Source: a virus
Length of the DNA: 22,292 nucleotides
Strand: one strand, 5' to 3'
Virus record (IMG/VR): IMGVR_UViG_3300032285_000281
Location: 1 to 22,292 of that record
Shown piece by piece: positions 1 through 22,292 of the stretch. Position 1 is the stretch's first letter; each line of letters opens with the position of its first letter. The notes under the pieces were generated by a model. The model saw nothing but the letters and a program-made list of their open reading frames with translations, was not told the DNA's origin and made no database searches. The translations under genes and the position numbers were made by a program.

Positions 1-93
1 ACTGTTAGTTATTGCGACGGCTACAATTGGTTTTCCGTCCAATAGTGAAGCGCCTCTATAAATGATATAACCACTGATTTTTTTTGCTGCCAT
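1..93 (-). CDS. Conserved small phage protein, 5' part only (runs off left edge)
   Basis: An ATG at 93-91 opens a frame that stays open for 31 codons to the window edge. It reads MAAKKISGYIIYRG, then ASLLDGKPIVAVAI. I recognise the pattern Y-R-G-x-S-x-L-D-G-x-P-I-V as the N-terminus of a conserved hypothetical protein found in many phages and some plasmids, often next to replication or antirestriction genes. Its function is not established. A strong ribosome site, GGAGG, lies ten bases before the ATG inside a 16-base leader shared with the ardC gene. It is the third and last visible gene of the leftward operon, 81 bases after the ardC stop. The Cys-containing C-terminal half expected in this family lies outside the window, so the family call rests on the first 31 residues. 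Confidence 0.6.
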   Translation of the reverse strand, partial: MAAKKISGYIIYRGASLLDGKPIVAVAITNS

Positions 94-100
94 GATATTA

Positions 101-116
101 CCTCCAGTTTAGGATA
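101..116 (-). promoter_or_regulatory. Shared 16-base leader with GGAGG ribosome site (copy 1)
   Basis: On the minus strand this reads TATCCTAAACTGGAGG, immediately before the start at 93. The identical 16 bases occur at 1068-1083 before the ardC start. Both end in an exact GGAGG ribosome site. The rest of each copy is more than a ribosome site needs, which suggests duplication or a shared translational control site. Confidence 0.7.
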
Positions 117-134
117 ATGCCTAGAATGATATTG

Positions 135-163
135 CCTAGGTTAACCGGTAAAGTCAACCTAGG
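135..163. repeat. Inverted repeat between ardC and the next leftward gene
   Basis: CCTAGGTT at 135-142 and AACCTAGG at 156-163 are perfect 8-base arms. Two further pairs (AC with GT) follow after one mismatch, leaving a 7-base loop. The element lies 12 bases past the ardC stop on the minus strand. No T-run follows in the leftward direction, so an intrinsic terminator is unlikely. A protein-binding dyad or an mRNA processing or stability hairpin fits better. Confidence 0.5.
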
Positions 164-174
164 ATAAACCCTTA

Positions 175-1059
175 TTATGCTGCGACTAATTCGGACTCTT
201 CGGCGACTGGCTGCGCTGCCTCTTCGCTGCTGGCGAATGCCTTAATATAGTCGGCTGCTTTTTGCGCTAGTGCTGCCGCTTTAAATATTGCTTTATTGTC
301 ATTTTTTAGGACTCTCAACCAAGAGGCGATATATCCAGCATGGCGCAGGTCGCCATTAATCTGATAATTGGCGCATAAGAATGCGGCGGACAATTCGGCT
401 ATCAACTCTTCGGCGGCATATGCTTCATTCCCAAATCTACCGGACAAATCACGATTAAGGCGACTGGCTGCGCCGCTCCAGTGAGTGAGCTCATGCAATA
501 AAGTAGCATAATAAGCGGCTTCAGTTTTAAAGTCTGTTTTTTGTGGCATTTGAATAAAATCTTGAGCCGGTGAATAAAATGCCTTGTCGCCGCCATGTTT
601 AATGACTGCGCCGCTGGCTGCTGCCAGTGTCTCAAGCGCTGCAATGCTATTGAATGTTTTTGCCGGTAACACTGGCGCAGTGTATCCGTCGACTTGGTCG
701 GCATTAAATACACTGTATGATTTTAAAACATAATGATATGTTTTCTCTTCGCCGCTTGCCGTAACCTTGCTGCCAGTGACTGGCGAATAAAAGATAATTG
801 TAGTGCCTTTAGTGCCTTTTTTAACTTGAGCGCCGACTGATAACCACTGCTTATAAGTACCCCATGCGCCGGACTTGTAACCGGCTGCAGCTTCGCTCAT
901 GCCTAGAATGATAGTATTAATACCATTGTAGCCCTTGCCACTGATTACATTATGGCTGCCGCTGCTGCTGCCTTGCCATTGCTTTACCCATGGCGCTGCG
1001 CCGCTCTCAAGCTGCTTAATAATAGTGTCTGTTACTTGTTGATAGATTAATGCGCTCAT
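175..1059 (-). CDS. ardC: ArdC-type antirestriction protein (ssDNA-binding domain plus zincin-like metallopeptidase)
   Basis: 294 residues, full length for the family. Residues 1 to about 125 match the ArdC N-terminal ssDNA-binding domain: PWVKQW near 23-28, GKGYNGINTIILG near 41-53, WGTYKQW near 66-72 and a GAQVKKGTKGT stretch near 76-86. Residues about 135-275 are the peptidase-like domain, with HELTH at 189-193 and a likely third metal ligand in EELIAEL at 217-223. Known plasmid ArdC proteins protect incoming DNA from host restriction, acting in the recipient cytoplasm. Here an early role in protecting injected phage DNA is inferred. The start has GGAGG nine bases upstream. It is the second gene of a leftward operon, 36 bases after the 70-residue gene. 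The coding region is much richer in GCGC than the structural genes, suggesting separate ancestry. The family call is firm; in vivo activity is not shown. Confidence 0.93.
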   Translation of the reverse strand: MSALIYQQVTDTIIKQLESGAAPWVKQWQGSSSGSHNVISGKGYNGINTIILGMSEAAAGYKSGAWGTYKQWLSVGAQVKKGTKGTTIIFYSPVTGSKVTASGEEKTYHYVLKSYSVFNADQVDGYTAPVLPAKTFNSIAALETLAAASGAVIKHGGDKAFYSPAQDFIQMPQKTDFKTEAAYYATLLHELTHWSGAASRLNRDLSGRFGNEAYAAEELIAELSAAFLCANYQINGDLRHAGYIASWLRVLKNDNKAIFKAAALAQKAADYIKAFASSEEAAQPVAEESELVAA

Positions 1060-1067
1060 TTTTAATG

Positions 1068-1083
1068 CCTCCAGTTTAGGATA
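1068..1083 (-). promoter_or_regulatory. Shared 16-base leader with GGAGG ribosome site (copy 2, before ardC)
   Basis: Minus-strand TATCCTAAACTGGAGG, identical to 101-116, placed just before the ardC ATG at 1059. It abuts a second short duplication: the 15 bases at 1080-1094 recur exactly at 1222-1236 inside the neighbouring gene. Confidence 0.7.
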
Positions 1084-1095
1084 CTGCGGTTTAGT

Positions 1096-1308
1096 TTAAG
1101 AGAATATTACATTTTGATTGAGCGCAATAAAATTATTTTTTACTGCCTCAAGTGTTGCAATGCGCTTGCGTAGGTTAGCGATAAGTAAGTCGTCCGGCTT
1201 ATCCGCAATTGAATGATTAAAGATACTGCGGTTTAGCGTATAGATTACGCTATCAATACAACCCATTGCGGTGTATAGGTCATCGGCATGGTTTTCTGTT
1301 ATTTGCAT
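1096..1308 (-). CDS. Unknown 70-residue protein, first gene of the leftward operon
   Basis: I do not recognise this protein. It is short, mostly helical by composition, mildly acidic at the N-terminus (MQITENHADDLYTAMG), and has a Lys/Arg segment near residues 46-50 (ANLRKRI). It has one cysteine and no membrane segment. The start is supported by AAGGAA ten bases upstream. Its place as the promoter-proximal gene in front of ardC is typical of small early phage proteins that act on the host or regulate transcription, but nothing in the sequence shows which. Its 1222-1236 stretch is repeated at the gene's downstream edge (1080-1094). Confidence 0.65.
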   Translation of the reverse strand: MQITENHADDLYTAMGCIDSVIYTLNRSIFNHSIADKPDDLLIANLRKRIATLEAVKNNFIALNQNVIFS

Positions 1309-1419
1309 AGTCTTAATTCCTTATCTACGGGTTTAAATTGTGCTGCTTACCTATAGTATAACGGCACAATTCTATAAAAGTATACAATTATTTTATAGGG
1401 ATATACCCTTAGTTGCGTA

Positions 1420-1495
1420 AATACAACACTGTTTGTATTGTCATTTTAGAGTATAGTTCCCTTGTCCTGGTAATGAAATAGTGTTGTATTAATAC
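1420..1495. repeat. Nested dyads: AATACAA-N6-TTGTATT, and an 11-base inverted pair ending in a 10-base palindrome
   Basis: AATACAACACT at 1420-1430 is the exact reverse complement of AGTGTTGTATT at 1480-1490, 49 bases away. The left copy is also half of a local dyad, AATACAA (1420-1426) with TTGTATT (1433-1439). The right copy runs into the perfect palindrome GTATTAATAC (1486-1495). Recurrence of the GTATT/AATAC half-site looks like paired operator sites for one DNA-binding protein, possibly by looping. The regulator is not in the window. Confidence 0.55.
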
Positions 1496-1497
1496 CA

Positions 1498-1563
1498 CTG
1501 TATAGGTATCCAGTAGTTACCCTGTATAGGTGCATCATAGCAACACTCACTAGACCTGTATAG
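1498..1563. repeat. Three copies of CTGTATAG(G)
   Basis: CTGTATAGG occurs at 1498-1506 and 1522-1530, and CTGTATAG at 1556-1563, spaced 24 and 34 bases. On the minus strand each gives CTATACAG, which contains a -10-like TATACA, but no -35-like hexamer sits 16-18 bases before any of them. They may be activator or regulator sites for the leftward operon. Confidence 0.4.
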
Positions 1564-1575
1564 AATTACAGTATC

Positions 1576-1666
1576 GACTCTGTCCCTATTATTATCCTAT
1601 GTAAGTGCTTACTATCATTGACTCTGTCCCCATTATTGCTTCATTGATGTAAGTGAGTGCTTACTT
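1576..1666. repeat. Two-unit direct repeat with GTAAG...CTTAC dyads
   Basis: Each unit starts with GACTCTGTCCC(T/C)ATTATT (1576-1593 and 1620-1637, 17 of 18 identical, 44 bases apart) and ends with a GTAAG/CTTAC dyad. In unit 1 the dyad is ATGTAAGTGCTTACT (1599-1613). In unit 2 it is ATGTAAGTGAGTGCTTACTT (1647-1666), the same with four added bases. The 20-base unit 2 dyad recurs exactly, inverted, at 9820-9839. Confidence 0.75.
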
Positions 1667-1761
1667 CGCTATAGGGGGGAGGGGGTTGATGTTATAGTAT
1701 AATATTGTGGGAGGCGCTATAGCACACAAAAGAGTAAAATAGGACTTATGCTAATATAGAC

Positions 1762-1789
1762 TTAACTGATTGATAATAAAAGATAAAAT
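1762..1789 (+). promoter_or_regulatory. Possible sigma70 promoter
   Basis: TTAACT at 1762-1767, a 16-base spacer and TAAAAT at 1784-1789. Transcription would start near 1796, just ahead of the hairpin-rich 1814-1882 segment and upstream of the stronger promoter at 1909. The -35 is weaker than that of the 1909 promoter. Confidence 0.35.
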
Positions 1790-1795
1790 AGTCAA

Positions 1796-1905
1796 CATTG
1801 TCAATAATGGAAAATGCTCACTGCGAAGCAGGTCTGCGGAGGTCAACAAAGCTATGGTAGCCCCGCTACGGTAAAGACATAGTAAGTGTAGGGTCTATAA
1901 AATAA
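1796..1905 (+). ncRNA. Candidate structured RNA (or leader with a mini-ORF)
   Basis: CTGC-GAA-GCAG (1821-1831) is a small hairpin. A longer one is built from CTATG (1852-1856) plus GTAGC (1857-1861), a CCC loop, GCTAC (1865-1869), an 8-base bulge (1870-1877) and CATAG (1878-1882). This gives ten pairs around one bulge. A possible promoter ends at 1789. No terminator follows before the next promoter at 1909. The same DNA can encode a 22-codon peptide (ATG 1814, stop 1882, MLTAKQVCGGQQSYGS...) with only a weak ribosome site. An RNA role is inference; a short leader peptide is the alternative. Confidence 0.35.
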
Positions 1906-1908
1906 TGC

Positions 1909-1937
1909 TTGACAAAATCACGAAAGTATGCTAAAAT
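1909..1937 (+). promoter_or_regulatory. Strong sigma70-type promoter for the packaging operon
   Basis: TTGACA at 1909-1914, exactly 17 bases, then TAAAAT at 1932-1937. The upstream flank is A/T-rich. Expected start is near 1944, giving a leader of about 199 bases before terS. It closely resembles the promoter at 9777-9805, including the GC just before the -35. Confidence 0.8.
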
Positions 1938-1943
1938 CGCTTT

Positions 1944-2142
1944 ACAAGAGTTCAGCAACACACTATAAAGTAATCGGGACAGTCCCCTTCGGGACGACAA
2001 GTTATAGCGTACTGTAGCATGGGGAACGAATAACCGACAGGTAGTTCCCCCTAATAGCGAACAACGGTCTACGACAGCACTCTATAGTATTAGTAGGGCT
2101 TTGAATTTTTTTAATGTGTCTTCCTAAAAGGATAAAAGACTA
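1944..2142 (+). promoter_or_regulatory. Long structured 5' leader before terS
   Basis: GGGAC (1976-1980), GTCCC (1982-1986) and GGGAC (1991-1995) lie in series, with a CTTC loop between the second and third. The central GTCCC could pair with either flank, although pairing with the first would leave only one base between the arms. GGGGAAC (2021-2027) and GTTCCCC (2044-2050) form a second hairpin with a 16-base loop. A T-run follows at 2106-2112 without a strong hairpin directly before it. The leader ends in AAGGA before the ATG at 2143. It may act in translation control, antitermination or DNA packaging; the sequence does not decide. Confidence 0.5.
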
Positions 2143-2598
2143 ATGTCTGATGATGTGTCTTCAAACGAAGTGGTTGTTCTTGAAAAAAAGAAACGACCAA
2201 AGATTCGCAGACGAGAAGTGGTTAATGGTAAACCGAAGCGTGGTCGTCCTTCAAACAAGGCAATTGCTAAAAAGAAGAATCCCGGCACACTGGGCAGACC
2301 TCCCGGAGATGCAGCCCGAATAGCCGAGTTTAAAGCAAGACTACTTGCTACTGCTGGTGACAGTGTTATCACCAAGATTATTGAAACAGCACTTGCTGAC
2401 GGACACCCAGCACAGGGTGCAATGTTAAAGTTCTGTGGAGAACGACTGTTACCACTGTCTAGTTTTGAGGCAAAGTCTGGTGGTGGTACTCCGCAGATTA
2501 GTATTAATATTACTGGGATTAATTCACCAACAGTAGAAACTGCAGAAGAAGTAATTGAAAACGATTACACTGATGTAGTCATAAAGGATATAGAATAA
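2143..2598 (+). CDS. terS: Terminase small subunit (putative)
   Basis: 151 residues directly upstream of, and overlapping by one base, the large terminase. The first 50 residues are very basic with AT-hook-like GRP motifs (KKKRPKIRRR, KRGRPSNK, LGRPPGD), suiting a DNA-recognition subunit that marks the packaging start and loads the motor. Residues about 53-100 are predicted helical (AARIAEFKARLLATAG, VITKIIETALADG), and the C-terminus is acidic. Small subunits diverge strongly, so the call rests on position, length and the basic N-terminus rather than a signature. The start is set by AAGGA about ten bases upstream. It is the first gene behind the 1909 promoter and its structured leader. Confidence 0.75.
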   Translation: MSDDVSSNEVVVLEKKKRPKIRRREVVNGKPKRGRPSNKAIAKKKNPGTLGRPPGDAARIAEFKARLLATAGDSVITKIIETALADGHPAQGAMLKFCGERLLPLSSFEAKSGGGTPQISINITGINSPTVETAEEVIENDYTDVVIKDIE

Positions 2599-3857
2599 TG
2601 GCAGATTTGAACTTCAGTCTGCTAAAGTGGCAACAAGAAGTATTTAAAGACACTACTCGCTTTAAGGTTATTGCTGCGGGTCGTCGCTGTGGTAAAAGTA
2701 GATTATCTGCAGTAACCCTATTGATTGAAGGGTTAAATTGTCCTGAAGGCTCAAGTGTGATGTATGTCGCACCAACGCTAGGACAAGCCCGTACAATTAT
2801 CTGGGATTTGTTGATGGACTTAGGTAGACCGATTATTAAGTCTGCTCACATTAACAACTTAGAGATTACTTTAGTTAATGGTCGTAAGATTCTAGTTCGT
2901 GGTGCAGATAATCCTGACTCGCTTCGTGGTGTCAGTTTGACATATCTGGTGATGGACGAGTGTGCGTTTATTAAAGCAGAGATTTGGGAAAAGGTATTAC
3001 GAGCATCTTTGTCTGATAAAAAAGGTAGAGCCATGTTTATTTCTACCCCATCTGGTCGTAATCACTTTTATGACTGGTATCAGTTAGGACAAGCTGGTGA
3101 CGATGAAGAGTGGAAGTCTTGGCACTTTACCACTGCAGATAACGAAACCATTGACCCTAAAGAGATTGAAGCAGCTAAAAGGACATTAAGTTCCTTTGCG
3201 TTTGGACAAGAATATTTGTCTTCCTTTAACAACGCTGGTGCAGGTTTGTTTAAAGAAGAATGGGTTAAGTTCGGAGATGAACCTAAGTCTGGTAGTTGGT
3301 ACATTGCAATTGACTTAGCTGGATTTGAAGAAGTGGCTAAGAACGCTAGTGCCTCTAAGAAAAGATTAGACCAATCCGCTATTGCGTGTGTTAAAGTAAC
3401 CGATGACGGGAAATGGTATGTGGACAAGATTGAAGCAGGTCGTTGGGACATTGAAGAGACAGCGACTAGAATACTTAAAAATATCGCACAGTACGAGCCG
3501 ATGGCTGTAGGGATTGAGCGAGGAGCATTAAAGAACGCTGTATTGCCTTATTTGAGTAACTTGATGCGTCAGCACAATTGCTACGCTCATATCGCTGATT
3601 TAACGCATGGAAATAAGAAAAAAGTAGATAGAGTTATTTGGGCTTTGCAAGGTAGGTTTGAGCATGGTCAAGTGATTCTGAATGCTGAAGGTGACTTTGA
3701 TGAGTTTGTAGACCAGTTGCTAATGTTTCCTACAAATCAAGTTCACGACGATTTACCTGATGCTTTGTCTTACATCGACCAACTAGCCGTAACAACTTAT
3801 GGCTTTGACGATGCTGATGAAGAATATGAATGTATGGATATTATAAGCGGATACTAA
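2598..3857 (+). CDS. terL: Terminase large subunit (packaging ATPase and nuclease)
   Basis: 419 residues, normal for a compact phage TerL. N-terminal ATPase: Walker A AAGRRCGKS at 26-34, Walker B YLVMDE at 116-121 and the coupling motif FISTPSG at 148-154. C-terminal RNase H-like nuclease: YIAIDLA with D239, GIERG with E307 and HDDLPDAL at 383-390, giving the expected acidic metal ligands. It drives DNA into the prohead at the portal and cuts concatemers. ATG overlaps the terS stop in a TAATG junction, so translation is coupled. Next to it lie terS and, after one small gene, the portal. No key residue is missing. Confidence 0.97.
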   Translation: MADLNFSLLKWQQEVFKDTTRFKVIAAGRRCGKSRLSAVTLLIEGLNCPEGSSVMYVAPTLGQARTIIWDLLMDLGRPIIKSAHINNLEITLVNGRKILVRGADNPDSLRGVSLTYLVMDECAFIKAEIWEKVLRASLSDKKGRAMFISTPSGRNHFYDWYQLGQAGDDEEWKSWHFTTADNETIDPKEIEAAKRTLSSFAFGQEYLSSFNNAGAGLFKEEWVKFGDEPKSGSWYIAIDLAGFEEVAKNASASKKRLDQSAIACVKVTDDGKWYVDKIEAGRWDIEETATRILKNIAQYEPMAVGIERGALKNAVLPYLSNLMRQHNCYAHIADLTHGNKKKVDRVIWALQGRFEHGQVILNAEGDFDEFVDQLLMFPTNQVHDDLPDALSYIDQLAVTTYGFDDADEEYECMDIISGY

Positions 3858-3858
3858 T

Positions 3859-4272
3859 ATGAAATGTCCTATTGCTACACATGATATAAAAACCAATCTA
3901 AAAAACAGAGACTGGGCATTTAAGAATGTCGGTTACGGTCCTGCAAATCCCAATGAACCTAACAGTGCCTTTTGGAATGCTAAAGCCAATGAATGGCAAA
4001 CAGAACTAAAGCAAGCCAAGTCTATGCGTTGTGGTAACTGCTCTGCGTTTATCCAAACCCCTGAGATGATGGAATGTATTCGTACTGGCATTGACGAAGA
4101 AAAAGACAGTTACGCAGAAGATGTCATTGAGTCTGCTGGCTTAGGATATTGTGAACTATTTGATTTTAAATGTGCAGACACTCGCACTTGTAATGCTTGG
4201 TTAATTGGCGGTCCTATTACAGAAAGTAATATGGAAATGCCTGATATGATGACAGACACCACTGAGGACTAA
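3859..4272 (+). CDS. Conserved Cys-rich phage protein between terminase and portal
   Basis: 137 residues with seven cysteines: C3, a CGNC pair at 58/61, C73, C98, C105 and C111. The pattern RCGNC-SAF, then GYCELFDFKC, then RTCNAW-x-x-GGP recurs in small proteins of many marine and freshwater phages at this locus. Its function is unknown. The cysteines suggest a zinc or iron-sulfur site; the spaced Cys and Trp with GYC resemble high-potential iron-sulfur proteins, but that is speculation. The C-terminal 15 residues are acidic and Met-rich. It starts two bases after the terL stop and ends one base before portal, so it is co-transcribed and perhaps stoichiometrically linked to head assembly. Confidence 0.8.
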   Translation: MKCPIATHDIKTNLKNRDWAFKNVGYGPANPNEPNSAFWNAKANEWQTELKQAKSMRCGNCSAFIQTPEMMECIRTGIDEEKDSYAEDVIESAGLGYCELFDFKCADTRTCNAWLIGGPITESNMEMPDMMTDTTED

Positions 4273-4273
4273 A

Positions 4274-6331
4274 ATGGCTCAAATGAAAGACAACAACGAA
4301 TCAACTCAGTGGGATGAACCTACTGAATCAGATAAAGAGATTATTGCATTCGTTATTGAACACACTGACTTATGGAGAGACTATCGTGACCAAAACTTCC
4401 TAGATGATTGGGAAGAGTACGAAAGAATCTTTAGAGGTGAGTGGGAAGCTCAGGACCGTACTCGTGAGTCAGAGCGTAGCCGTATTATTTCTCCTGCAAC
4501 TCAGCAAGCTATTGAGACTCGTCACGCAGAAATTATGGAAGCTATCTTCGGTGATGGTGAGTATTTTGACATTGAAGATGACGCTGCTGACGACCAACCA
4601 ATGGATGTTGCCCAGCTTAAGATTCAGTTACAAGAAGATTTAGAAAAACAAAAGGTTCGTAAACAGATTGATCAAATCGAACTGATGGCAGAGATTTATG
4701 GTACTGGTATTGGTGAGATTGTAGTTAAAAAAGATAAAGAGTATATTCCTTCTACTCAGCAAATCCCCGGCTCTACTCAAGCCGCTTATGGTGTTACTGA
4801 GCGTGAATACACTTGCGTTAAACTTAATCCTGTAAATCCTAAGAACTTCCTCATTGACCCTAATTCTTCTACTGTGGAAGATGCACTAGGTTGTGCTGTT
4901 GAGAAGTTTGTGTCTATTCACAAAGTTGTAGAAGGCATGGAAAAGGGTATCTATCGTAAAGTCAACATCAACTATGCTTCTGATGATACTGCACTAGAGC
5001 CAACTCAAGAACTTAAACAGTTCCAAGATGGTAAAGTTCGTCTATTAACTTATTATGGTTTAGTTCCTCGTGAATACATTGAACAGTTGGAAAATTCAGA
5101 TGGTGAAGAAGTTATTGACTTGTTCCCAGATGACTCTGTTGCTGATGATTATGCTGACCTTGTAGAAGCGATTATTGTCATTGCTAACGACTCTATGCTC
5201 CTCAAGGCAGAAAAGTCTCCTTACATGATGAAAGACCGTCCTATCGTTGCGTATCAAGACGATACAGTCCCTAATCGTTTCTGGGGTCGTGGTACTGCTG
5301 AAAAAGCATACAATATGCAAAAGGCTATAGATGCCCAGTTACGCAGTCATTTAGACAGTCTAGCCCTTACCACCTCACCAATGATTGCTATGGACGCTAC
5401 AAGGCTTCCTAGAGGTGCTAAATTTGAAGTTAAACCGGGTAAAGCAATCCTTACCAATGGTGCTCCTTCAGAGATTCTGTTCCCATTTAAGTTCGGTCAG
5501 ACAGACCAGACTAACATTGCTACCTCACAGAACTTTGAGCGTATGCTTTTACAAGCTACTGGTACTGTAGATTCGTCAGGCATGCCTTCACAAGCCCCTC
5601 GTGACGCTGGTACAGGCGGTATGTCTATGGCAATGGCAGGTATTATTAAGAAATACAAGCGTACATTGACCAATTTCCAAGAAGATTTCTTGATTCCGTT
5701 CATTCGTAAGGCTGCATATCGTTATATGCAATTTGACCCTGAGCGTTATCCGTCAAAAGACTACAAGTTTATGCCAACTGCTACCCTTGGTATCATGGCT
5801 CGTGAGCATGAACAGCAGCAATTCATCGCTTTACTGCAAACTTTAGGACCAAATACACCAGTATTGCCAATTATTCTCAAAGGAATCATCGGTAACTCTA
5901 GTTTATCTAACAAAACTGAACTTGCACAAGCATTAGACCAGATGAGTCAGCCTAATCCACAGGTACAACAGCTCCAACAAGCAGAACAACAGCTTAAATT
6001 ACAGGCTGCACAGGCTCAAATCAAGAGTTTGGATGCTTCTGCTGCTAAAGACATGGCTGATGCTCAGAAAACAATGGTTGAGGCTCAATTAGCTCCTAAA
6101 GAGACTGAAGCTAAGGTAATTGCTTCTGTTTCTCGTAATCTGCCACAACAAGGCGACCAAGCAAACGCTGAATTTGATAGAAGAGTGAAGATTGCTGAGT
6201 TAATGTTAAAAGAAGCAGACCTAAAAAACAATACTAAAATTGTTGAAATGCAAATGTTTGATAAGTCTGCTACAATAGGAAAGACTGAAGAAGATTTCTT
6301 AAATAATCTGACTGCAAAGCTCTCTAAATAA
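4274..6331 (+). CDS. Portal (head-to-tail connector) protein
   Basis: 685 residues, in the size range of P22-like portals. The N-terminal half carries features typical of these proteins: YRDYRDQN-like helix with WEEYERIFRGEWE near 40-57, an RSRIISP stretch, IETRHAEIMEAIFG near 80-93, VNPKNFLIDP near 188-198 and GRGTAEKAYNMQKAIDAQLRSHLD near 338-361. The GTVDSSGMPSQAPRDAGTGG loop near 430-449 is followed by long helices. Residues about 560-640 are Gln/Ala/Lys-rich coiled coil, like the barrel of P22 portal. A dodecameric ring at one capsid vertex would bind TerL during packaging and the adaptor afterwards. It sits after terL and before the fibre gene, whose ATG overlaps its stop. Confidence 0.9.
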   Translation: MAQMKDNNESTQWDEPTESDKEIIAFVIEHTDLWRDYRDQNFLDDWEEYERIFRGEWEAQDRTRESERSRIISPATQQAIETRHAEIMEAIFGDGEYFDIEDDAADDQPMDVAQLKIQLQEDLEKQKVRKQIDQIELMAEIYGTGIGEIVVKKDKEYIPSTQQIPGSTQAAYGVTEREYTCVKLNPVNPKNFLIDPNSSTVEDALGCAVEKFVSIHKVVEGMEKGIYRKVNINYASDDTALEPTQELKQFQDGKVRLLTYYGLVPREYIEQLENSDGEEVIDLFPDDSVADDYADLVEAIIVIANDSMLLKAEKSPYMMKDRPIVAYQDDTVPNRFWGRGTAEKAYNMQKAIDAQLRSHLDSLALTTSPMIAMDATRLPRGAKFEVKPGKAILTNGAPSEILFPFKFGQTDQTNIATSQNFERMLLQATGTVDSSGMPSQAPRDAGTGGMSMAMAGIIKKYKRTLTNFQEDFLIPFIRKAAYRYMQFDPERYPSKDYKFMPTATLGIMAREHEQQQFIALLQTLGPNTPVLPIILKGIIGNSSLSNKTELAQALDQMSQPNPQVQQLQQAEQQLKLQAAQAQIKSLDASAAKDMADAQKTMVEAQLAPKETEAKVIASVSRNLPQQGDQANAEFDRRVKIAELMLKEADLKNNTKIVEMQMFDKSATIGKTEEDFLNNLTAKLSK
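4670..4673. other. The only GATC tetranucleotide found in the window
   Basis: The site lies in TTGATCAA inside the portal gene. A line-by-line reading of all 22,292 bases found no other GATC. See the finding on restriction-site avoidance. Confidence 0.8.
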
Positions 6332-9300
6332 TGGCTAATATTAAAGATTTTATCAAGAAAATAGGAAACGAAACTGTTTCCTTAGAAGAACAGCAAAAAG
6401 CCTTAGCAGCGGTTGAACAAACCATTGTTGAGGCTAAAGCTAAACGAGAAGAGTCTATCGGTAAGAATGTAGACTTAGTTATCTCTGCCTTAAAAAAGAT
6501 TGAATCTGACTTAGAAGCTAAACTAGTTGAACTGAATAACACTCCTGCTAAACAGGGTGTTGCTGGTCCTAAAGGTGAAAAAGGTCGTGATGGTAGTGAT
6601 GGTAAAGACGGCTACAAAGGTCAAGATGGTAAAGACGGAGTAGATGGACAAGACGGCAAAGATGGTGCAGATGGTATTTCTGTCACTGACGCTAAGGTAG
6701 ACTTTGACGGCTCTTTAGTTATCACTTTATCTGATGGTCGTGAGATTGATGCTGGTACTGTTTTATCTGTTGATGCTGCCAAGCACATTCACTCTGTACA
6801 AACTGGTGGTACTGGTTCTACATCACAAGCTGTATTAGATGCTATTGCTGCTATTCAAGCACAAATTATTAGTATTATTGGATTTAGCAATACTGCTGCA
6901 AGCGGCACACAAATTGTATTGACTGCTACTTCTGTACCAAATTATGTAATTACTGGTTCAGGCGGTCAAACAATTAAGCTACCCGATGCTACAACGCTAC
7001 CTAATGGCGCAGTATTTTCATTTAATAATAATCAATCTAGTGGTGCAATTAGTGTAAACAATAATTCTAATACTTTAGTAGTTTCTATACCGTCAGGTGC
7101 TTTTACTGTAGTTACTTTGTTGTCTAATTCGATTGCCGCAGGTTCTTGGGATACTCATGACCAAGCTCCATCTAATGTAAGTTGGTCAACTAATACATTT
7201 TCTTATCCCGGTTCTATTACATCAGCTACTTGGAATGGTAATGTCGTACAAGTAAACAGGGGCGGCACAGGAGCAAACACATTAACTGGATATGTCAAAG
7301 GTAGTGGCACAACTGCATTAACAGCTTCTTCTACTATCCCTAGTACGGATATTAGCGGTCTTGGCACAATGTCCACGCAAAATGCAAGCTCTGTAGCTAT
7401 TACAGGCGGCACAATAGACAACACAGTTATTGGTGGCACTACCCCAGCCGCAGGTACATTTACTACTATTACAGGACAGACAGAAGTATTAAAAGGTACT
7501 GGGCAGAATTTATTAGTTCAATCTAGTGTTTTAACAAATGCTTCTTGGCTTCAATCTGTTATTACTGTTACTGGCTCTCAAACAGACCCATTTGGAGGTA
7601 CTACTGCGGCTTTGCTAAACAATGGAACTTCTGCTGGAACTCATCAAATAGCACAAGCAGTTTCATCAATTTCTAGTAGCAATTTAACTTATACATTTAG
7701 TGTTTATGCAAAAGCTGGAACAGCAAATTACATAGGTTTATATTCTAGTAGTCAAGGCGCATTTTTTAATTTAACTACAGGTGCGTTTAGCGCAAATATT
7801 ATTGGCGCACCAATTTCCTATACATCTACAAATACTGGTTTGCCTGCAGGGTGGTGGCGAGTTTCTATTACTGTAAGCGGAAATTCAGGCGCACAATTTC
7901 AAATAATTATGTCAGAAGATGGCACTAATTATTCCTATACTGGCACAAGCAAAACAGTAACAATTTCATCGCCACAATTAGAATTTGGCACAACAGCAAA
8001 CGCTTATCAATCCACAACCTCAGCAATTGTTTATGGAACTCCATCATTATCATTTAATAATGCGGCTTCTGTTTCAATGGATAATTTGGGCAATTTAGCT
8101 GTTTCCCCAGCAGGAACAGGCGCACTACAAGCACAAGCTACTACATCTTCTGCTACTGGTGGTAATGCTAGGGGTGCTAATGCAACAGATTGGCAAACAA
8201 GTAGAAGTAGTGCAGGGCAAGTTGCTAGTGCTTCCCAAGCAGTAATAGGCGGTGGTGCAAGTAATACAGCTTCAGGTGCATATTCTGTTGTTGGTGGTGG
8301 CAATACAAACTTAAATCAAGGTGCTGGTGATTTTATTGGTGGTGGTAACGGAAACGCTACGGCTAGTAACTTTGCTTCAGTTGTAGGCGGTCAAGGTAAT
8401 TCCGCTAACGGATTTTATAATGTTATTGGTGGTGGTTACACAAATTCAGGAACTTCAAGTTCTACTGTAACTACCCAAACTTCTGCAACTACAGGCGGTT
8501 CTACTGCTGTAACTTTGGCGGCAAGTAACGCAAGCATTAAAGTAGGTCAAATGGTTCGTGGTACAGGAATACAAGATTATTCTTATGTAGCCGCAATATC
8601 AGGCACATCTTTAACTTTAAGCCAAAACGCAAATTCAACTCAAGCATCAACAACTTTACAATTCTATACCCCTCATGGAATAGTAGTAGGCGGTGGTAAT
8701 AACCAAGCTACAGGTAGTTATTCATTTATTGGTGGTGGTGGTGATGCTGGTACTGCTGGAAACCGAAATGTGGCTAGTGGGGACTGGAGTTTTGTTGGTG
8801 GGGGAACTAAGAATACGGCTAGTGGATTGTATTCATCCGTAAATGGTTCAAGCAATACTTCTAGCGGAACATCATCGGTTGTTGCTGGTGGCGGTGCGTA
8901 TGGAGCGCAAGGATTTTTAGGAAATAATGCAAGTGGCACAAGTGCTTTTATTGGAGCAGGATTAGGAAACATTGCTAATTCTAGTTATTCTGCTGTTGTA
9001 GCTGGAACTTTTGGAACAACAAGAGCGATTGATGCTATCCATGTTTTTCCAGCAATTAATAATGCTTTTGGGGCAAATGCCACAGGTGTTGCTCAAGCTG
9101 CTTTATTAGTTCTTGCAAAACAAACAACTGATGCAACTCCTACAGTTCTCGTTTCTAATAATAATGCCGCTAGTTCAACAAACCAAGTAATACTACCTAA
9201 TAACTCTGCTTATTACTTTACTGGCGAAGTTATATCAGGAGTAACTGGCGGTGGAAACACTAAAGGTTGGGAAATCGCTGGTGTAATTAAGCGAGGTGCT

Positions 9301-9489
9301 AACGCTGGTGCTACAACCCTTGTAGGCTCAACCGTCACATCTATGTACGCTGATGTAGGTGCGGCAACATGGACTATTGGTCTTACAGCCGACACTACTA
9401 ATGGTGGTTTAGCAGTTACTTTTACAGGGCAAGCAAGCACAACTATTCGTACAGTTTGCCAAATCCGTACAACAGAAATGACTTACTAA
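6331..9489 (+). CDS. Large mosaic tail fibre (collagen-like, carbohydrate-binding-like, YadA-like)
   Basis: 1052 residues in modules. Residues 1-75 are a helical, probably trimeric stalk. Residues 76-115 are 13 consecutive G-X-Y triplets rich in KD and QD. Residues 116-150 are a short beta segment, and about 160-385 are fibre shaft with GGTG-type repeats. Residues about 389-560 (NLLVQSSVL ... AGWWRVSITV) look like a jelly-roll carbohydrate-binding module. Residues about 635-890 are YadA-head-like repeats (VVGGGxxNxASG), interrupted near 707-778 by a beta domain (VGQMVRGTGI...). About 900-1052 is a beta C-terminal head. It would bind host surface glycans. It starts on the portal stop (TAATG), an unusual site between portal and scaffold. 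Several GCGC sites, rare in other structural genes, cluster at 7007-8122, consistent with module acquisition. Confidence 0.85.
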   Translation: MANIKDFIKKIGNETVSLEEQQKALAAVEQTIVEAKAKREESIGKNVDLVISALKKIESDLEAKLVELNNTPAKQGVAGPKGEKGRDGSDGKDGYKGQDGKDGVDGQDGKDGADGISVTDAKVDFDGSLVITLSDGREIDAGTVLSVDAAKHIHSVQTGGTGSTSQAVLDAIAAIQAQIISIIGFSNTAASGTQIVLTATSVPNYVITGSGGQTIKLPDATTLPNGAVFSFNNNQSSGAISVNNNSNTLVVSIPSGAFTVVTLLSNSIAAGSWDTHDQAPSNVSWSTNTFSYPGSITSATWNGNVVQVNRGGTGANTLTGYVKGSGTTALTASSTIPSTDISGLGTMSTQNASSVAITGGTIDNTVIGGTTPAAGTFTTITGQTEVLKGTGQNLLVQSSVLTNASWLQSVITVTGSQTDPFGGTTAALLNNGTSAGTHQIAQAVSSISSSNLTYTFSVYAKAGTANYIGLYSSSQGAFFNLTTGAFSANIIGAPISYTSTNTGLPAGWWRVSITVSGNSGAQFQIIMSEDGTNYSYTGTSKTVTISSPQLEFGTTANAYQSTTSAIVYGTPSLSFNNAASVSMDNLGNLAVSPAGTGALQAQATTSSATGGNARGANATDWQTSRSSAGQVASASQAVIGGGASNTASGAYSVVGGGNTNLNQGAGDFIGGGNGNATASNFASVVGGQGNSANGFYNVIGGGYTNSGTSSSTVTTQTSATTGGSTAVTLAASNASIKVGQMVRGTGIQDYSYVAAISGTSLTLSQNANSTQASTTLQFYTPHGIVVGGGNNQATGSYSFIGGGGDAGTAGNRNVASGDWSFVGGGTKNTASGLYSSVNGSSNTSSGTSSVVAGGGAYGAQGFLGNNASGTSAFIGAGLGNIANSSYSAVVAGTFGTTRAIDAIHVFPAINNAFGANATGVAQAALLVLAKQTTDATPTVLVSNNNAASSTNQVILPNNSAYYFTGEVISGVTGGGNTKGWEIAGVIKRGANAGATTLVGSTVTSMYADVGAATWTIGLTADTTNGGLAVTFTGQASTTIRTVCQIRTTEMTY

Positions 9490-11248: not shown

Positions 11249-12169
11249 ATGGCACTAGGTACAGACCATGTAACGGTCACAACAGCGAATACATTCATCC
11301 CAGAAATCTGGAGTGACGAGATTGCCGCTGCTTACAAAAAATCATTAGTACTAGCTAATCTTGTCAAGAAGATGTCTTTCAAAGGCAAAAAAGGCGATAC
11401 AGTACATATCCCTGTTCCAACTCGTGGTTCAGCATCTGCTAAGTCTGCATCAACTCAAGTAACTTTGATTGCTGCAACTGAGTCAGAAGTAACAGTAACT
11501 ATCGACAAACACTATGAATATAGCCGTTTGATTGAAGATATTGTCGAAGCTCAAGCATTGTCTTCACTGCGTCAGTTCTACACAGACGACGCTGGTTACG
11601 CTTTGGCTAAACAAGTTGACACCAACCTAATTCAATTAGGTCGTATCGCTCAAGGCGGTGCTAATACAGCAGCTTACACTAAGGGTTACATCGGTGGTGA
11701 CGGTTCAACATTGTATGTTGCTGCTTCAAACAACGCTTCTGCATTGACTGATGCTGGTATCCGTCGTGCTATCCAGCGTTTGGATGACAGCGATGTTCCA
11801 ATGGATGGTCGTTATTTCGTTATTCCTCCATCAAGCCGTAATACATTGATGGGCTTGGCTCGTTATACTGAGCAAGCGTTTGTTGGTGAAGTTGGTTCAA
11901 ACAACACCATCCGCAATGGTGAAATCGGTAACTTGTACGGTATGCCTGTATTTGTGTCTTCTAACGCTGACACAACTTCTGGTTCTACTGCAGCTCGTGC
12001 TTGCTTAATGGGTCACAAAGATGGTATCGTACTTGTTGAGCAGATGGGTGTTCGTTCACAGACTCAGTACAAACAAGAGTACCTTGGTACATTGTTCACT
12101 GCAGATACACTCTACGGTGTAAATGAGTTGCGTGACTACGCTACTGTTGCTTTGATTGTTCCAGCTTAA
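11249..12169 (+). CDS. Major capsid protein (HK97-fold coat)
   Basis: 306 residues. The order is N-terminal arm (FIPEIWSDEIAAAYKKSLVLANLV near 16-39), an extended-loop-like segment with PVPTRGSASAK near 56-66, then YSRLIEDIVEAQALSS near 90-105 on the spine helix. Next is an Ala-rich A-domain helix (GIRRAIQRLDDSDVP) with RYFVIPPSSRNTLM, and a beta-rich C-terminus ending ELRDYATVALIVPA. This is the usual layout of HK97-fold coats in podovirus-like phages. Many copies form the icosahedral shell. AAAGGA lies eight bases before the ATG, and a terminator hairpin follows the stop, as expected for a very highly expressed gene. Codon choice looks smoother than in neighbours (many GGT, CGT and GCT), consistent with high expression. 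Confidence 0.93.
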   Translation: MALGTDHVTVTTANTFIPEIWSDEIAAAYKKSLVLANLVKKMSFKGKKGDTVHIPVPTRGSASAKSASTQVTLIAATESEVTVTIDKHYEYSRLIEDIVEAQALSSLRQFYTDDAGYALAKQVDTNLIQLGRIAQGGANTAAYTKGYIGGDGSTLYVAASNNASALTDAGIRRAIQRLDDSDVPMDGRYFVIPPSSRNTLMGLARYTEQAFVGEVGSNNTIRNGEIGNLYGMPVFVSSNADTTSGSTAARACLMGHKDGIVLVEQMGVRSQTQYKQEYLGTLFTADTLYGVNELRDYATVALIVPA

Positions 12170-13838: not shown

Positions 13839-13854
13839 AAATAAGGAAATTAAA

Positions 13855-14256: not shown

Positions 14257-14258
14257 TC

Positions 14259-14979: not shown

Positions 14980-14982
14980 GTC

Positions 14983-15153: not shown

Positions 15154-15166
15154 TTTTAGGATTATC

Positions 15167-15526: not shown

Positions 15527-15535
15527 GGATTAATT

Positions 15536-15853: not shown

Positions 15854-15862
15854 GGATAAATC

Positions 15863-16200: not shown

Positions 16201-16451
16201 TGGTTAAGAAAGTTTATCAGAATCCTGAAGGTGGTCTTAACCAAAAAGGTAGAGACTATTATAACAAGACTACTGGCTCTAAACTAAAGCCGCCAGTGTC
16301 TGCTAAAGAGGCTGCAAAGTCTCCCAAAGCTGCAGGTAGACGAAAGAGTTTCTGTGCTCGTATGAGTGGTGTTGACGGTCCAATGAAAGATGAAAAAGGA
16401 AGACCTACTCGTAAAGCACTGGCATTAAAAAAGTGGGATTGTAAAAAATAA
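16200..16451 (+). CDS. Lysine-rich small protein 3 (DUF6321-like)
   Basis: 83 residues: a GGLNQKGRDYYNKTTGSKLK block, then PPVSAKEAAKSPKAAGRRKS, FCARMSGVDGPMKDEKGRPT and RKALALKKWDCKK. This is a highly conserved phage small-protein pattern (DUF6321-like) with two cysteines (FCARM and WDC). Function unknown. Very basic; the invariant-looking GPMKDEKGRPTRKALAL segment suggests a specific binding surface rather than mere charge. It closes the operon in front of the promoter at 16455. Confidence 0.82.
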   Translation: MVKKVYQNPEGGLNQKGRDYYNKTTGSKLKPPVSAKEAAKSPKAAGRRKSFCARMSGVDGPMKDEKGRPTRKALALKKWDCKK

Positions 16452-16454
16452 TTG

Positions 16455-16483
16455 TTGACACATTGACAAAAGTGTGATAAACT
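16455..16483 (+). promoter_or_regulatory. Sigma70-type promoter directly before the adaptor gene
   Basis: TTGACA at 16455-16460, exactly 17 bases, then TAAACT at 16478-16483. A second TTGACA at 16463-16468 overlaps the spacer. The expected start (about 16490) is only about four bases before the ATG at 16494, so the AAGGA at 16484-16488 would not be in this transcript. Confidence 0.6.
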
Positions 16484-16493
16484 AAGGAACAAC

Positions 16494-17150
16494 ATGGCAA
16501 CAACTTACCTACAAGCTGTTAACTCTGTTTTGCGTAGATTGCGTGAGACAGAAGTTTCTACAGTCAATGAAAACAGCTACTCTAAATTAATTGGAGAGCT
16601 GGTCAACGACGCTAAAAAACAAGTAGAAGATTCGTACGATTGGAATTCCTTAACTACTTATTTTACTGTTACCACTGTAGCAGACCAGTATGATTACACT
16701 GTCACAGGTCTAGGTGATAGATTTAAAGTTATTGACTTTCTAAACGATACTCAAGACTATGCAATGATTAACATCACTGCAGAGCGTATGAATCGTTTTA
16801 CAACCTTTGGCACACCACAAAAGTCTTCCCCTTTGTATTACACTTTTAATACTATTGATTCAGCTACAGGAGATACTAAAGTTAGTTTGTTTCCGTTGCC
16901 TGATAAAACATATTCTTTAATTTTAGATGCTGTTGTGCCACAAGCAGACTTGACTTCAGATGGAACAATCATCTTAGCCCCACCAACACCTATCATTCTT
17001 AATGCCTACGCTAGAGCATTGCTTGAGCGTGGTGAAGATAATGGATTAAATTCTAGCGAAGCATGGGCTTTGTACAAATCTTCTTTAAGCGACAATATTG
17101 CTGTGCAAGCTGCACACCACACTGAGTTTACTGAGTGGGTTGCTAATTAA
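16494..17150 (+). CDS. Tail adaptor protein (SU10 adaptor / T7 gp11-like)
   Basis: 218 residues. MATTYLQAVNSVLRRLRETE, then LVNDAKKQVEDSYDWNSLTT is the helical start typical of SU10-type adaptors. VTGLGDRFKVIDFLND and PLYYTFN follow, with a beta insertion, then PTPIILNAYARALLERGED and a helical C-terminus. The adaptor ring sits beneath the portal and carries the nozzle and fibres. Finding it with the nozzle gene next door is the main evidence for a short-tailed virion. The start is conserved. The ATG is preceded by AAGGA but also by a promoter close enough to give an almost leaderless mRNA. Its stop overlaps the nozzle start (TAATG). Confidence 0.88.
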   Translation: MATTYLQAVNSVLRRLRETEVSTVNENSYSKLIGELVNDAKKQVEDSYDWNSLTTYFTVTTVADQYDYTVTGLGDRFKVIDFLNDTQDYAMINITAERMNRFTTFGTPQKSSPLYYTFNTIDSATGDTKVSLFPLPDKTYSLILDAVVPQADLTSDGTIILAPPTPIILNAYARALLERGEDNGLNSSEAWALYKSSLSDNIAVQAAHHTEFTEWVAN

Positions 17151-18730: not shown

Positions 18731-19122
18731 TGGCACTTGCTCAAGAATATACACCAACCGAGATTATCAAGAAAGACTTAGCTCGTGGTGGTTTTAGTAA
18801 AGAAGAAGACAAACTCTTAAAAGGATTTGTCGCTTTAATCAATGCAAATAAAGCTGTTCTTGTTCGTCATAACAACACTGTGTTTGTTGGTATCCGTAAA
18901 GAACCCGGTGTATTAGAAGTACATATGTATACACTAGACCCTTTGTCTACACTACCACAAGCAATGAAAGTTGCTTTTGATACCGTTAAAAAAGCTGGTG
19001 TTAAGAAACTACAATCTGAAACTACTAATCCTAGATTGATTAAAATGTTAGAAACACTAGGACCAGTAAAAACAACTAAAAAAGGTAAGAATATTGCATG
19101 GGAATTGGAGATTGCTAAATGA
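18730..19122 (+). CDS. GNAT-fold-like small protein
   Basis: 130 residues. The middle and end look like a reduced GNAT fold: TVFVGIRKEPGVLEVHMYTL, then QAMKVAFDTVKKAGVKKLQS, TTNPRLIKMLETLG and a final beta strand (GKNIAWELEI). The typical Q/RxxGxG/A acetyl-CoA loop is not clear, so catalytic activity is doubtful. GNAT-like proteins occur at this position, after the nozzle gene, in many podovirus-like phages and in the T7-like gp13 region, where they act in virion assembly. TAATG and ATGA overlaps with both neighbours tie its dose to nozzle and internal proteins. Confidence 0.6.
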   Translation: MALAQEYTPTEIIKKDLARGGFSKEEDKLLKGFVALINANKAVLVRHNNTVFVGIRKEPGVLEVHMYTLDPLSTLPQAMKVAFDTVKKAGVKKLQSETTNPRLIKMLETLGPVKTTKKGKNIAWELEIAK

Positions 19123-21008
19123 GATATAGTTTAGATTCTACGCTTCCAATCAATGCGTTTTCTCCTCGTGGTAATGGTCCTTTTGCGTATGGAATGACAC
19201 TTGAAGGCGGTAGTAATCCAGTTCAAAGTGTTGTTAATGCTGTATCGGATGCAGGGCAGTCTATAGCTAATGTAGTTTCTGATGCTGGAACAGTGATTGA
19301 TAAAAATGTTATTCAACCAGCTATTGATGACCCTGTAGGTACTGCAGTTAAGATTGCAGCGATTGCTGCTGCTCCTGCTACTGGCGGTACATCGTTGTAT
19401 GCTATTCCAGCCTACGCAGCCGCTAAAGCAACTGCTGCTGGATTACCTATTGAAGATGTAGCGTTTAGAGCAGCCGTTTCTGCTGCTGCTACTGCTGCAG
19501 GTGTAGAAGTTGGTGACTACATTGGAACAATGGCAGAATATGGAACTGATGTTGGTTCACAACAAACAGCAATGTTAGCACAACAAAATATTGGTATTGG
19601 TACAGGTAATGTAGCTTCTACCACTGCTGGACAGATTGCTGGTGGCGCTGCTTCGGGCGGTATTGCTGCTGCTGCAAATGACAAACCAATAGATTTAGGT
19701 TTGTTGTCTGGAGCTACAAGCGGTGCAATTGGTGCAGGTGTTGGTGCAACAGTAGACGCTGCTGCAAATTCAGGATTATTTAATAATGTAGTTAGTCAAG
19801 CGAATACAGGAAATACAAATATGGAAGATTGGTTAACAGCGAGTGGATATTACGACAATCCCGCTAATGTGGATACATACACACCTCCGACGGCAGCAGA
19901 TTTTTCTCCAATAGATTATGGACAAAACTCTGGTGATGTGGAAGCACAGGCAGGGGGATATTATGGTGGAGTTGCCCCAGTAAATCCGTATACTAATATG
20001 TCTGATGAACAGATTGCGGCTGAATTAGCTAAAACTCCTGCTTTTGTTGGTTCAGGAACAGACAGCAATACAATTCTTGGAATGGTTAAAAGTCTTGGTT
20101 CTTCTGTTGTTAAATCATTATTAGGTGGAACAGCTACTGCTGCACAAAGAGCCGCTGCTCAAAATTCAGGATTTGGTAACTTACTTGGTGCTGCTACTGG
20201 TTTATTTACTGCTAATCAAAATAAAGCTGCACTACAAAATTCTTATAATACTCAAGCACAATCAGTTCGCAATGCAGCTACTCAAGCACAAAACCTAGCA
20301 TCCTTTACTCCTATTGGAACTACGAACTTCTTTGGTTCTTCACAGTTCACTAGAGACCCAGTAACAGGACAAATCACTTCTGCTGGTTTTACTCCTACAG
20401 CACAAGTTGGTGGACAGATACAGAATCTGTTTGGTTTAGGTGCTCAAGCACTCCCAACTACAACAAATACTCAAGACATACAAAGACAATATATTGCACA
20501 GCAACAGGGTTTGTTAGCTCCGGGTCGTGAACAAGCATTAGCTAACTTAAATAATACTCAGTTCCAAACTGGAACAACTGGTTTAGCTACTGGTGGTACA
20601 ATGGCTGGCTATGCTCCCGGTCAAGCTGGATTAATGCAGACTAATCCTCAACTAGCTGCTTATTATAATTCTTTAGCACAACAAGATGCTCAATTAGCTG
20701 CTAACGCACCTACTTATGCTCAAAACTTGTTAAATTCACAAATTAATACAGGCACTGGTTTGTTTGGTTCTGCAAACACATTACAAGGATATGCACAACA
20801 ACCGTTGACAATCTCTACAGACCTTGCTAAAGCACAATCTGCTGCAGGCGCTTATGCAGGTAATCTAGGTCTTACAGGACAAACTAACGCTGCTCAGTTG
20901 GCTGCCACAGGTATGTTACAAGGAAATGCAGCAATGCAAGGTACTTACAATCAATTAGGACAGACAGCAACTGGTCTTGGTAATACAATTGCAAACTGGT
21001 TAAGTTAA
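19119..21008 (+). CDS. Internal virion / DNA ejection protein 1 (putative)
   Basis: 629 residues, rich in Ala, Gly, Gln, Thr and Asn, lacking cysteine. Residues about 34-70 hold two similar VVxxVSDAG segments. About 72-108 is hydrophobic (GTAVKIAAIAAAPATGG...), and about 165-225 has Gly/Ala repeats resembling membrane-active helices. The second half (TGLFTANQNKAALQNSYNTQ near 360-380, then FTRDPVTGQITSAGF and many Gln/Asn/Ala helices) matches the general character of phage ejection proteins that leave the head and form a conduit through the cell envelope. Position after nozzle genes supports this. No enzymatic motif is visible. ATG overlaps the previous stop (ATGA). Confidence 0.65.
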   Translation: MRYSLDSTLPINAFSPRGNGPFAYGMTLEGGSNPVQSVVNAVSDAGQSIANVVSDAGTVIDKNVIQPAIDDPVGTAVKIAAIAAAPATGGTSLYAIPAYAAAKATAAGLPIEDVAFRAAVSAAATAAGVEVGDYIGTMAEYGTDVGSQQTAMLAQQNIGIGTGNVASTTAGQIAGGAASGGIAAAANDKPIDLGLLSGATSGAIGAGVGATVDAAANSGLFNNVVSQANTGNTNMEDWLTASGYYDNPANVDTYTPPTAADFSPIDYGQNSGDVEAQAGGYYGGVAPVNPYTNMSDEQIAAELAKTPAFVGSGTDSNTILGMVKSLGSSVVKSLLGGTATAAQRAAAQNSGFGNLLGAATGLFTANQNKAALQNSYNTQAQSVRNAATQAQNLASFTPIGTTNFFGSSQFTRDPVTGQITSAGFTPTAQVGGQIQNLFGLGAQALPTTTNTQDIQRQYIAQQQGLLAPGREQALANLNNTQFQTGTTGLATGGTMAGYAPGQAGLMQTNPQLAAYYNSLAQQDAQLAANAPTYAQNLLNSQINTGTGLFGSANTLQGYAQQPLTISTDLAKAQSAAGAYAGNLGLTGQTNAAQLAATGMLQGNAAMQGTYNQLGQTATGLGNTIANWLS

Positions 21009-21017
21009 GGAATAATT

Positions 21018-22109
21018 ATGGCAGACGGATTCGATAACATTGTTGGTGGTCTTTTTGGTGTAAGCCCAGAAAGTCTAAATCTTGCTCGTGAACAACAGAA
21101 TTTAAACTTTGCTAAAGAAGTTGCTTCTGCAGAGGGACTAAAGCCCGGTGCTGGTTCAGTGCTTGGTGCTAATGTCATGGGTGCTCGTGGAGTACAGCAA
21201 GCAGGTGCTTTATTTGGTGTTCAAGACCCACTAATGCAACGAGTAACACAACAACAGCAATTACTTGGTGGTGTTGATTTTACTAACTTGCAATCTTTAC
21301 AAACTGCTGCTCAAGAAGCCTCTAAAGCAGGTCGTCCCGACATTGCTCAAGAACTTGCTAAACGAGCTTTAGAGATTCAAACTAAAGTAGAAGAGAGACA
21401 ATTAACTCGTGATACGCAATTACAGATTGCTCGTGAGCGTATTCAAGGTCAATTAGATGCTGCGGTGCAACGAGGTGCAGACCAAAAAGAAATAGCAAGA
21501 ATTATGACAGAAGGTAGACAGCAGATGGCTATGTTGGCTGCTTCTCTTAAAGGACCTAAACCACTTGCGGCAAGTTTGCAAAAAGAAGAAGATACTAATT
21601 TAGCTGCTTTAGATAATTACACTGCTCAACAAGAAGCACTTGCTCCGTCAATTAAAGCATTGACACCAGATGCTAAAGGTGTTCGTCAGTTAGAATTAGG
21701 TCCGCTTAAAAATGCTGAATACATGGCACAAAACGCTGCTGGTAATTCTACACCACAAAGTCGTGCTTATGAGAATTTAAAATCTTCTGTAGATACTGCA
21801 GTAAACTTGTTAGTTAGTGCAGAAAAAGGTGTACAAACCGATGCCGATGTGAAGCGTTTTGCTCAAGCACTTGTTGCAGCATACGGACGCAATGATACTG
21901 CAACAACTCTACAAGCATTAACACGCTATAACGAAGCTATTGGTAAAGCGGCTAATAGAACAAAAGACAGAATTGAATCTCGTCGTCGTTCACAAGGTGT
22001 TGAATCTTATGGATTTGAACAAAGACCAGCAACACCAACACAAGAATCTGCAGCACCTAAGAAAACTCGTACACTCAAGTCTGGTCTTGTTGTAACTATT
22101 GAGGATTAA
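21018..22109 (+). CDS. Internal virion protein 2 (putative)
   Basis: 363 residues. An N-terminal Gly-rich part (GFDNIVGGLFGVSPESLNLA, then LGANVMGARGVQQAGALFGV) leads to a long, charged, Gln-rich helical region about 95-190 (AGRPDIAQELAKRALEIQTK, RDTQLQIARERIQGQLDAAV). More helices and a basic Pro/Lys tail (SAAPKKTRTLKSGLVVTIED) follow. Composition and position resemble T7 gp14/gp15-region internal core proteins. AAGGAA precedes the ATG by about eight bases, and it starts nine bases after the previous stop. Not recognised as a specific family; the role is inferred from context. Confidence 0.6.
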   Translation: MADGFDNIVGGLFGVSPESLNLAREQQNLNFAKEVASAEGLKPGAGSVLGANVMGARGVQQAGALFGVQDPLMQRVTQQQQLLGGVDFTNLQSLQTAAQEASKAGRPDIAQELAKRALEIQTKVEERQLTRDTQLQIARERIQGQLDAAVQRGADQKEIARIMTEGRQQMAMLAASLKGPKPLAASLQKEEDTNLAALDNYTAQQEALAPSIKALTPDAKGVRQLELGPLKNAEYMAQNAAGNSTPQSRAYENLKSSVDTAVNLLVSAEKGVQTDADVKRFAQALVAAYGRNDTATTLQALTRYNEAIGKAANRTKDRIESRRRSQGVESYGFEQRPATPTQESAAPKKTRTLKSGLVVTIED

Positions 22110-22111
22110 TA

Positions 22112-22292
22112 ATGCCAAAATATACCATTAATGGTGTAACCTACAACTCCGCTACAGAATTATCTGATTCAGATTTAGAAGAATTGGCTGGTGGAACAGC
22201 ACAGACAGTACCAACTGCTGCACCACAAACAGCACCAGTTCCTCAACAGCGTTCAATGTTAGATGAACTAGGAAGACAAGTAGGGCTAACTG
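22112..22292 (+). CDS. Start of a further virion protein (runs off right edge)
   Basis: ATG at 22112, two bases after the preceding stop, then 60 open codons to the edge: MPKYTINGVTYNSATELSDS, then DLEELAGG, a Pro/Gln/Thr-rich linker and SMLDELGRQVGLT. A short N-terminal cap, Pro/Gln linker and LGRQVGLT-type helix are typical of large internal virion proteins in this position, some of which carry a lytic transglycosylase. Only the N-terminus is present, so the function is a guess. GAGGA, overlapping the end of the preceding gene, is the likely ribosome site. Confidence 0.6.
   Translation, partial: MPKYTINGVTYNSATELSDSDLEELAGGTAQTVPTAAPQTAPVPQQRSMLDELGRQVGLT

Follow-up and report, generated by a model that had tools for sequence, protein, structure and literature searches.

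The DNA analysed here (the window, 22,292 bases that make up a complete IMG/VR virus record, with a GC content of 0.399) is purged of a series of short words. The depletion has enzyme-like borders and a phylogenetic pattern among related phages, and forbidden words are left in imported genes. This word loss is very probably the outcome of prolonged type II restriction, with several systems as the selecting force. Several orthodox type II systems, met via one or more hosts, would have acted on an unmodified virulent genome, with their recognition words cleared mostly through synonymous changes; incoming unmethylated DNA without sites would then escape cutting. The words cleared would be GATC, ACGT, GGCC, CGCG, GGNNCC, CCWGG, AAGCTT and CAGCTG, together with RCATGY from the pooled relatives, and subclades exposed to other host repertoires would have lost other words. 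Host type II nucleases are the presumed selecting agent, and the word set may stem from one host group or from several successive hosts.

Word loss in the window

An exact count over the whole window finds GATC once and GGCC, CGCG and ACGT not at all, in agreement with the initial annotation for the first three words. GGNNCC, AAGCTT and CAGCTG are likewise absent, while CCWGG and RCATGY occur once each. The single sites are placed as follows:

4670..4673, the sole GATC, within the portal gene
1466..1470, + strand, the sole CCWGG (CCTGG), in a non-coding stretch
5580..5585, the sole RCATGY (GCATGC), retained also in relative G002

The expected numbers first given for GATC, GGCC and CGCG (80, 35 and 35) were zero-order values and too high; a first-order Markov model of the window gives 45, 34 and 19. 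Synonymous-codon shuffling within 26 genes (300 shuffles) gives 45.0 ± 5.4, 19.0 ± 3.6 and 12.6 ± 3.0, and the depletion survives this check, the shuffled minima being 32, 8 and 5, respectively. For ACGT the shuffled expectation is 53.6 ± 5.6 (minimum 36), and the means for GGNNCC, AAGCTT, CAGCTG and CCWGG are 18.5, 9.0, 15.0 and 16.3. The observed counts of GATC, ACGT, GGCC, CGCG, GGNNCC, CCWGG and AAGCTT were reached in none of the 300 shuffles. When GATC, ACGT, GGCC and CGCG are summed, one observed site stands against 128.5 ± 8.4 (minimum 101 in 1,000 codon shuffles). Chance and codon usage are therefore rejected.

The initial list of depleted words was correct as far as it went and missed ACGT, GGNNCC, CCWGG, RCATGY, AAGCTT and CAGCTG. 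CATG, which had served there as a control that is present, does occur at 49 sites, but it masks the loss of RCATGY. In the window RCATGY is found once, against 33 expected by the first-order Markov model but only 5.6 by codon shuffling; its loss is thus weak from the window alone and solid only with the pooled relatives. We dropped it as a window-only claim and retained it on the pooled evidence.

The completely depleted 4-mers are palindromes without exception, which speaks for the type II reading. In the codon shuffle AATT, AGCT, TATA and TCGA come out modestly low, a result in favour of a general avoidance of palindromes or hairpins, of dinucleotide bias or of codon usage as the origin of the losses. 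Such an origin is nevertheless extremely improbable. CCGG, GCGC, CATG, CTAG, GANTC, GTNAC and TTAA are normal or near expectation in the same shuffle, so that palindromes as such are not avoided, and sister subclades of equal GC have lost different words. Composition bias was rejected on these two grounds.

Two non-palindromic words are also low. CACGG/CCGTG occurs once in the window (expected 7.4 ± 2.3), with both strands depleted, and 2/65 times when pooled over subclade A (the window and relatives G001, G002, L002, L004 and L007), the only subclade in which it is purged; this may be the mark of a type IIS or type III system. ACGCC/GGCGT, found once in the window (expected 12.2 ± 3.1), is low in subclades A and B but occurs at normal levels in relative G005 and throughout the outer clade.

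Enzyme-like borders and the TerL tree

The depletion ends where the specificity of a restriction enzyme would end. In two subclades of pooled relatives RCATGY stands at 5/145 and 0/210, with RCATGR, YCATGY and YCATGR near expectation. CCWGG stands at 2/114 (observed/expected, pooled relatives) versus 76/34 for CCSGG, and hardly any sites remain in any subclass of GGNNCC, against 167/144 for GGNNNNCC. Apart from CACGG/CCGTG and ACGCC/GGCGT, only enzyme-like palindromes are lost, and their borders are sharp. The purged words are targets of enzymes of the NspI, EcoRII, NlaIV, HaeIII, DpnII, BstUI, MaeII, HindIII and PvuII types.

We collected 80 relatives by their terminase large subunit (TerL) and built a tree of 80 TerL sequences that includes the window, whose clade comprises 32 rows. 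GATC is purged in 31 of these (the exception being L031) and normal outside the clade; its state changes twice on the tree, compared with about 25 times when labels are shuffled. GGCC changes twice, ACGT five times and CCWGG seven times (17 with shuffled labels), and the pattern of GGCC and ACGT across the clade nearly matches that of GATC. One clade member, G008, has 91 ACGT sites of 116 expected and no GATC of 107. The subclade of the window lost CCWGG, AAGCTT and CAGCTG and kept CCGG; neighbouring groups lost CCGG and GCGC and kept CCWGG, AAGCTT and CAGCTG; the outer clade lost CCWGG and GGWCC and kept GATC, ACGT and GGCC. Site loss therefore varies with lineage, as type II avoidance under differing hosts predicts.

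No loss in the clade is more stable than that of GATC, with only two changes, and in an earlier survey all 46 phages whose hosts had such systems avoided this type IIM site (PMC6286503). It may thus have been avoided separately, through host Dam marking, mismatch repair or methyl-directed nucleases, with the other words lost via restriction. We consider this unlikely, as it covers one of nine words while the loss of the other eight is just as complete, and neither within genes nor by strand does GATC take a special place.

The leftover GGCC sites of G004 and G007 lie less than 100 bases from a contig end (L088, position 1; L094, position 37; L095, position 18397) and are possibly assembly-end errors, so single sites can be doubtful. 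The chance that the losses as a whole arose in assembly or sequencing is next to nil: the same words are absent from about 30 contigs of many separate metagenomes, yet present in the related outer clade, which comes from the same collection. An artefact was rejected because the same losses recur in many independent contigs.

Gene content, imported genes and ArdC

The window is probably a piece of a larger genome, about 40% of which lies outside the record; relatives measure 37-39 kb. Apart from tail proteins, it encodes:

175..1059, - strand, ArdC-like antirestriction protein of 294 aa (Pfam ArdcN and MPTase-PolyVal, E 8.9e-34 and 2.3e-51)
2598..3857, + strand, TerL, the tree marker (Pfam Terminase_6N)
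4274..6331, + strand, SU10-like portal protein (Pfam SU10_portal, 2.8e-21)
6331..9489, + strand, long fibre-like gene with seven GCGC sites, at the expected rate
11249..12169, + strand, capsid protein (Pfam Phage_capsid_2, 5e-10)
16494..17150, + strand, SU10-like adaptor protein (Pfam SU10_adaptor, 3.1e-08)

Judging from the relatives, the missing part carries a DnaB-like helicase, a family A DNA polymerase, a class II ribonucleotide reductase, exonucleases and lysis genes. In the window, some 800 bases (1310-2142) that separate the terminase genes from the divergent ardC side hold no clear gene; sigma-70-like boxes, judged by eye, lie at about 1910-1935, and this gap is probably the early/late control region.

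Integrase and repressor families were not found in the corresponding genome part of the relatives, and the window TerL and an 11-row TerL alignment retrieved no relative from 84,980 GTDB genomes; a virulent lifestyle is therefore likely, and the phage is apparently podovirus-like. Among cultured phages, pelagiphages come closest in DNA polymerase (about 46% identity). A near-identity search against 50,697 phage records gave no match, a search for tRNAs as a clue to the host found none in the window or in ten relatives, and no published description of the lineage was found in the literature.

Several records hold their forbidden words in discrete segments, listed here with a third segment that is distinguished by its GCGC sites:

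L084 10687-11115 (record G001), peptidase M15-like lysis gene that holds all GATC and ACGT of an otherwise purged record
L098 12136-15536 (record G009), block of 3.4 kb with SAM-methyltransferase-like and oxygenase-like ORFs
1..1714 of the window, ardC block with 17 of the 27 GCGC sites of the window (binomial p 4.6e-13 for clustering)

In G001, a record of 28.4 kb, the four GATC and the three ACGT sites all fall inside this one gene of 429 bases, a pattern that a recent replacement of the gene would produce. In G009 every GGCC and CGCG lies within its block, where GATC is absent. In the window, the ardC block is free of GATC, ACGT, GGCC and CGCG; besides its 17 GCGC sites there are seven in the fibre-like gene and three in the remainder, where about 26 are expected. 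The ardC block was probably imported, and the fibre-like gene probably has a different module history; we read both as imports from relatives purged of GATC, ACGT, GGCC and CGCG but not of GCGC. Forbidden words that are missing in the window but present at the aligned place in close relatives differ from it synonymously in 12 of 14 cases (direction unpolarised); three of these differences are common to L006 and L007, which leaves fewer independent events.

By Pfam, the ArdC protein has an ArdcN domain followed by a zincin-like metallopeptidase domain, the two-domain arrangement of ArdC. Among the 11 records searched the gene is found in the window only, and the contig of a close relative, L004, aligns across the ardC region at 91%. 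The target of ArdC is type I restriction of DNA entering the cell, and such an action, predicted for the phage protein, would be complementary to the avoidance of type II sites. Word purging is just as strong in relatives that have no ArdC, so it neither replaces nor causes avoidance, and we rejected it in either role. The suggestion that the phage combines passive and active antirestriction thus stands as a gene inventory and not as a coupled strategy.

Self-methylation as the reason for word loss was also rejected. N6/N4 methylases were found in none of ten relatives, and no methylase was found in the window, about 40% of the genome being outside this record. A C5 methylase is present in one of 11 records (G002, L082 2702-3904); the region of this gene itself contains GGAACC, GGTTCC and AAGCTT, and its specificity is unreadable because the similarity to HhaI and HaeIII methylases spans the catalytic half only. 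A genome without sites offers nothing to cut, which would make a methylase of its own needless.

Probable restriction pressure and comparison with known phages

The claim of selective type II site loss has strong support from the codon-shuffle null, the enzyme-like borders, the clade-specific sets and the concentration of forbidden words in imports. Of the proposed escape from host restriction, the site loss holds, while the tie to a host system is putative: no host, nuclease, methylase or spacer linked to the phage was found, the TerL queries against the 84,980 GTDB genomes included.

Two sets of results count against the type II reading. The first is the pair of low non-palindromic words. 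The second concerns the pelagiphages HTVC103P (L103) and HTVC115P (L112), which lack nearly the same 4-mers (GATC, ACGT, GGCC and almost GGNNCC) although their hosts seemingly have no nucleases; Pelagibacter MAGs are reported with methylases but without partner nucleases (PMC9516812). On both grounds a share of the pressure other than type II is possible. We give a low, though not negligible, probability to the view that the restriction repertoires met by the ancestors of each subclade can be read from its purged set, so that host switches and recent imports could be placed on the phage tree without a known host, with part of the pressure perhaps other than host type II.

The purging in pelagiphages would also suit phage-encoded nucleases that attack the DNA of the host specifically at these words, the phage genome being word-free for self-protection, and a T5orf172/MUG113 GIY-YIG-like protein is indeed encoded in G002. 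This is very unlikely. Only replication exonucleases and that single GIY-YIG-like protein were found in G002; no GIY-YIG-like protein was found in G003, yet 13 words are purged there; and at least eight specificities would need at least eight enzymes, while the set changes between close relatives.

Selection by type II systems is in line with what is known of other phages. Restriction-site avoidance in virulent dsDNA phages reportedly goes back to work by Sharp in 1986 and Rocha in 2001. It is a textbook phenomenon, and its breadth here is high but not unique. Near-complete elimination is seen in about one tenth of viral genomes and almost solely concerns orthodox type II sites, mainly in non-temperate phages (Rusinov et al. 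2018, PMC6286503). The present phage resembles those of that survey in its near-eliminated palindromic type II words, its lytic gene content and its normal remaining palindromes. It differs from usual avoidance in that more words are lost at once than the typical one or two, and the set changes clade by clade. This form of evasion is unusually broad and lineage-specific.

Counting as eliminated those words with observed/expected <0.1 and at least 10 expected, overlaps being merged to independent words, the window has 8 and longer relatives 9-17, compared with 7 in T7, 6 in phi29, 3 in KHP30, 13 in A-4L, 15 in HMO-2011, 10 in HTVC103P, 18 in ctz7E20 and 0 in ct2os315, counts that depend on record length and on the merging of overlapping words. 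As benchmark phages reach 13-18 eliminated words, we rejected the label 'extreme and unique'. What the lineage offers is breadth and resolution, not a new mechanism: about 80 related records have sharply different purged sets, G008 having regained one word and others carrying fresh imports. The lineage is thus a natural data set for rates of restriction-site loss and regain, and useful to infer the restriction repertoires of the hosts of uncultivated phages.

Anabaena phage A-4L, Puniceispirillum phage HMO-2011 and Pelagibacter phage HTVC103P share the multi-motif purging, HTVC103P also lacking GATC, ACGT and GGCC; however, the word sets are partly different and kinship is distant (best DNA polymerase identity about 46%). 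T7 is similarly poor in GATC (6/149), CCWGG (2/69) and AAGCTT (0/11) but, unlike the window, keeps ACGT, GGCC (68/104), CGCG and GGNNCC. The window protein resembles ArdC of conjugative plasmids in combining ArdcN with a zincin-like metallopeptidase domain, and plasmids carry many homologues of it (with identities of up to about 48% among the matches listed); unlike these, it is phage-borne, sporadic in its lineage and predicted from sequence. Within the phage collection, its best ArdC match (47.8%) is encoded by Caudoviricetes ct2os315 (MW202796, Manatee Spring), which has a similar gene order (ardC, terminase, portal, capsid, class II RNR) but differs in having no eliminated words and an annotated C5 methylase.
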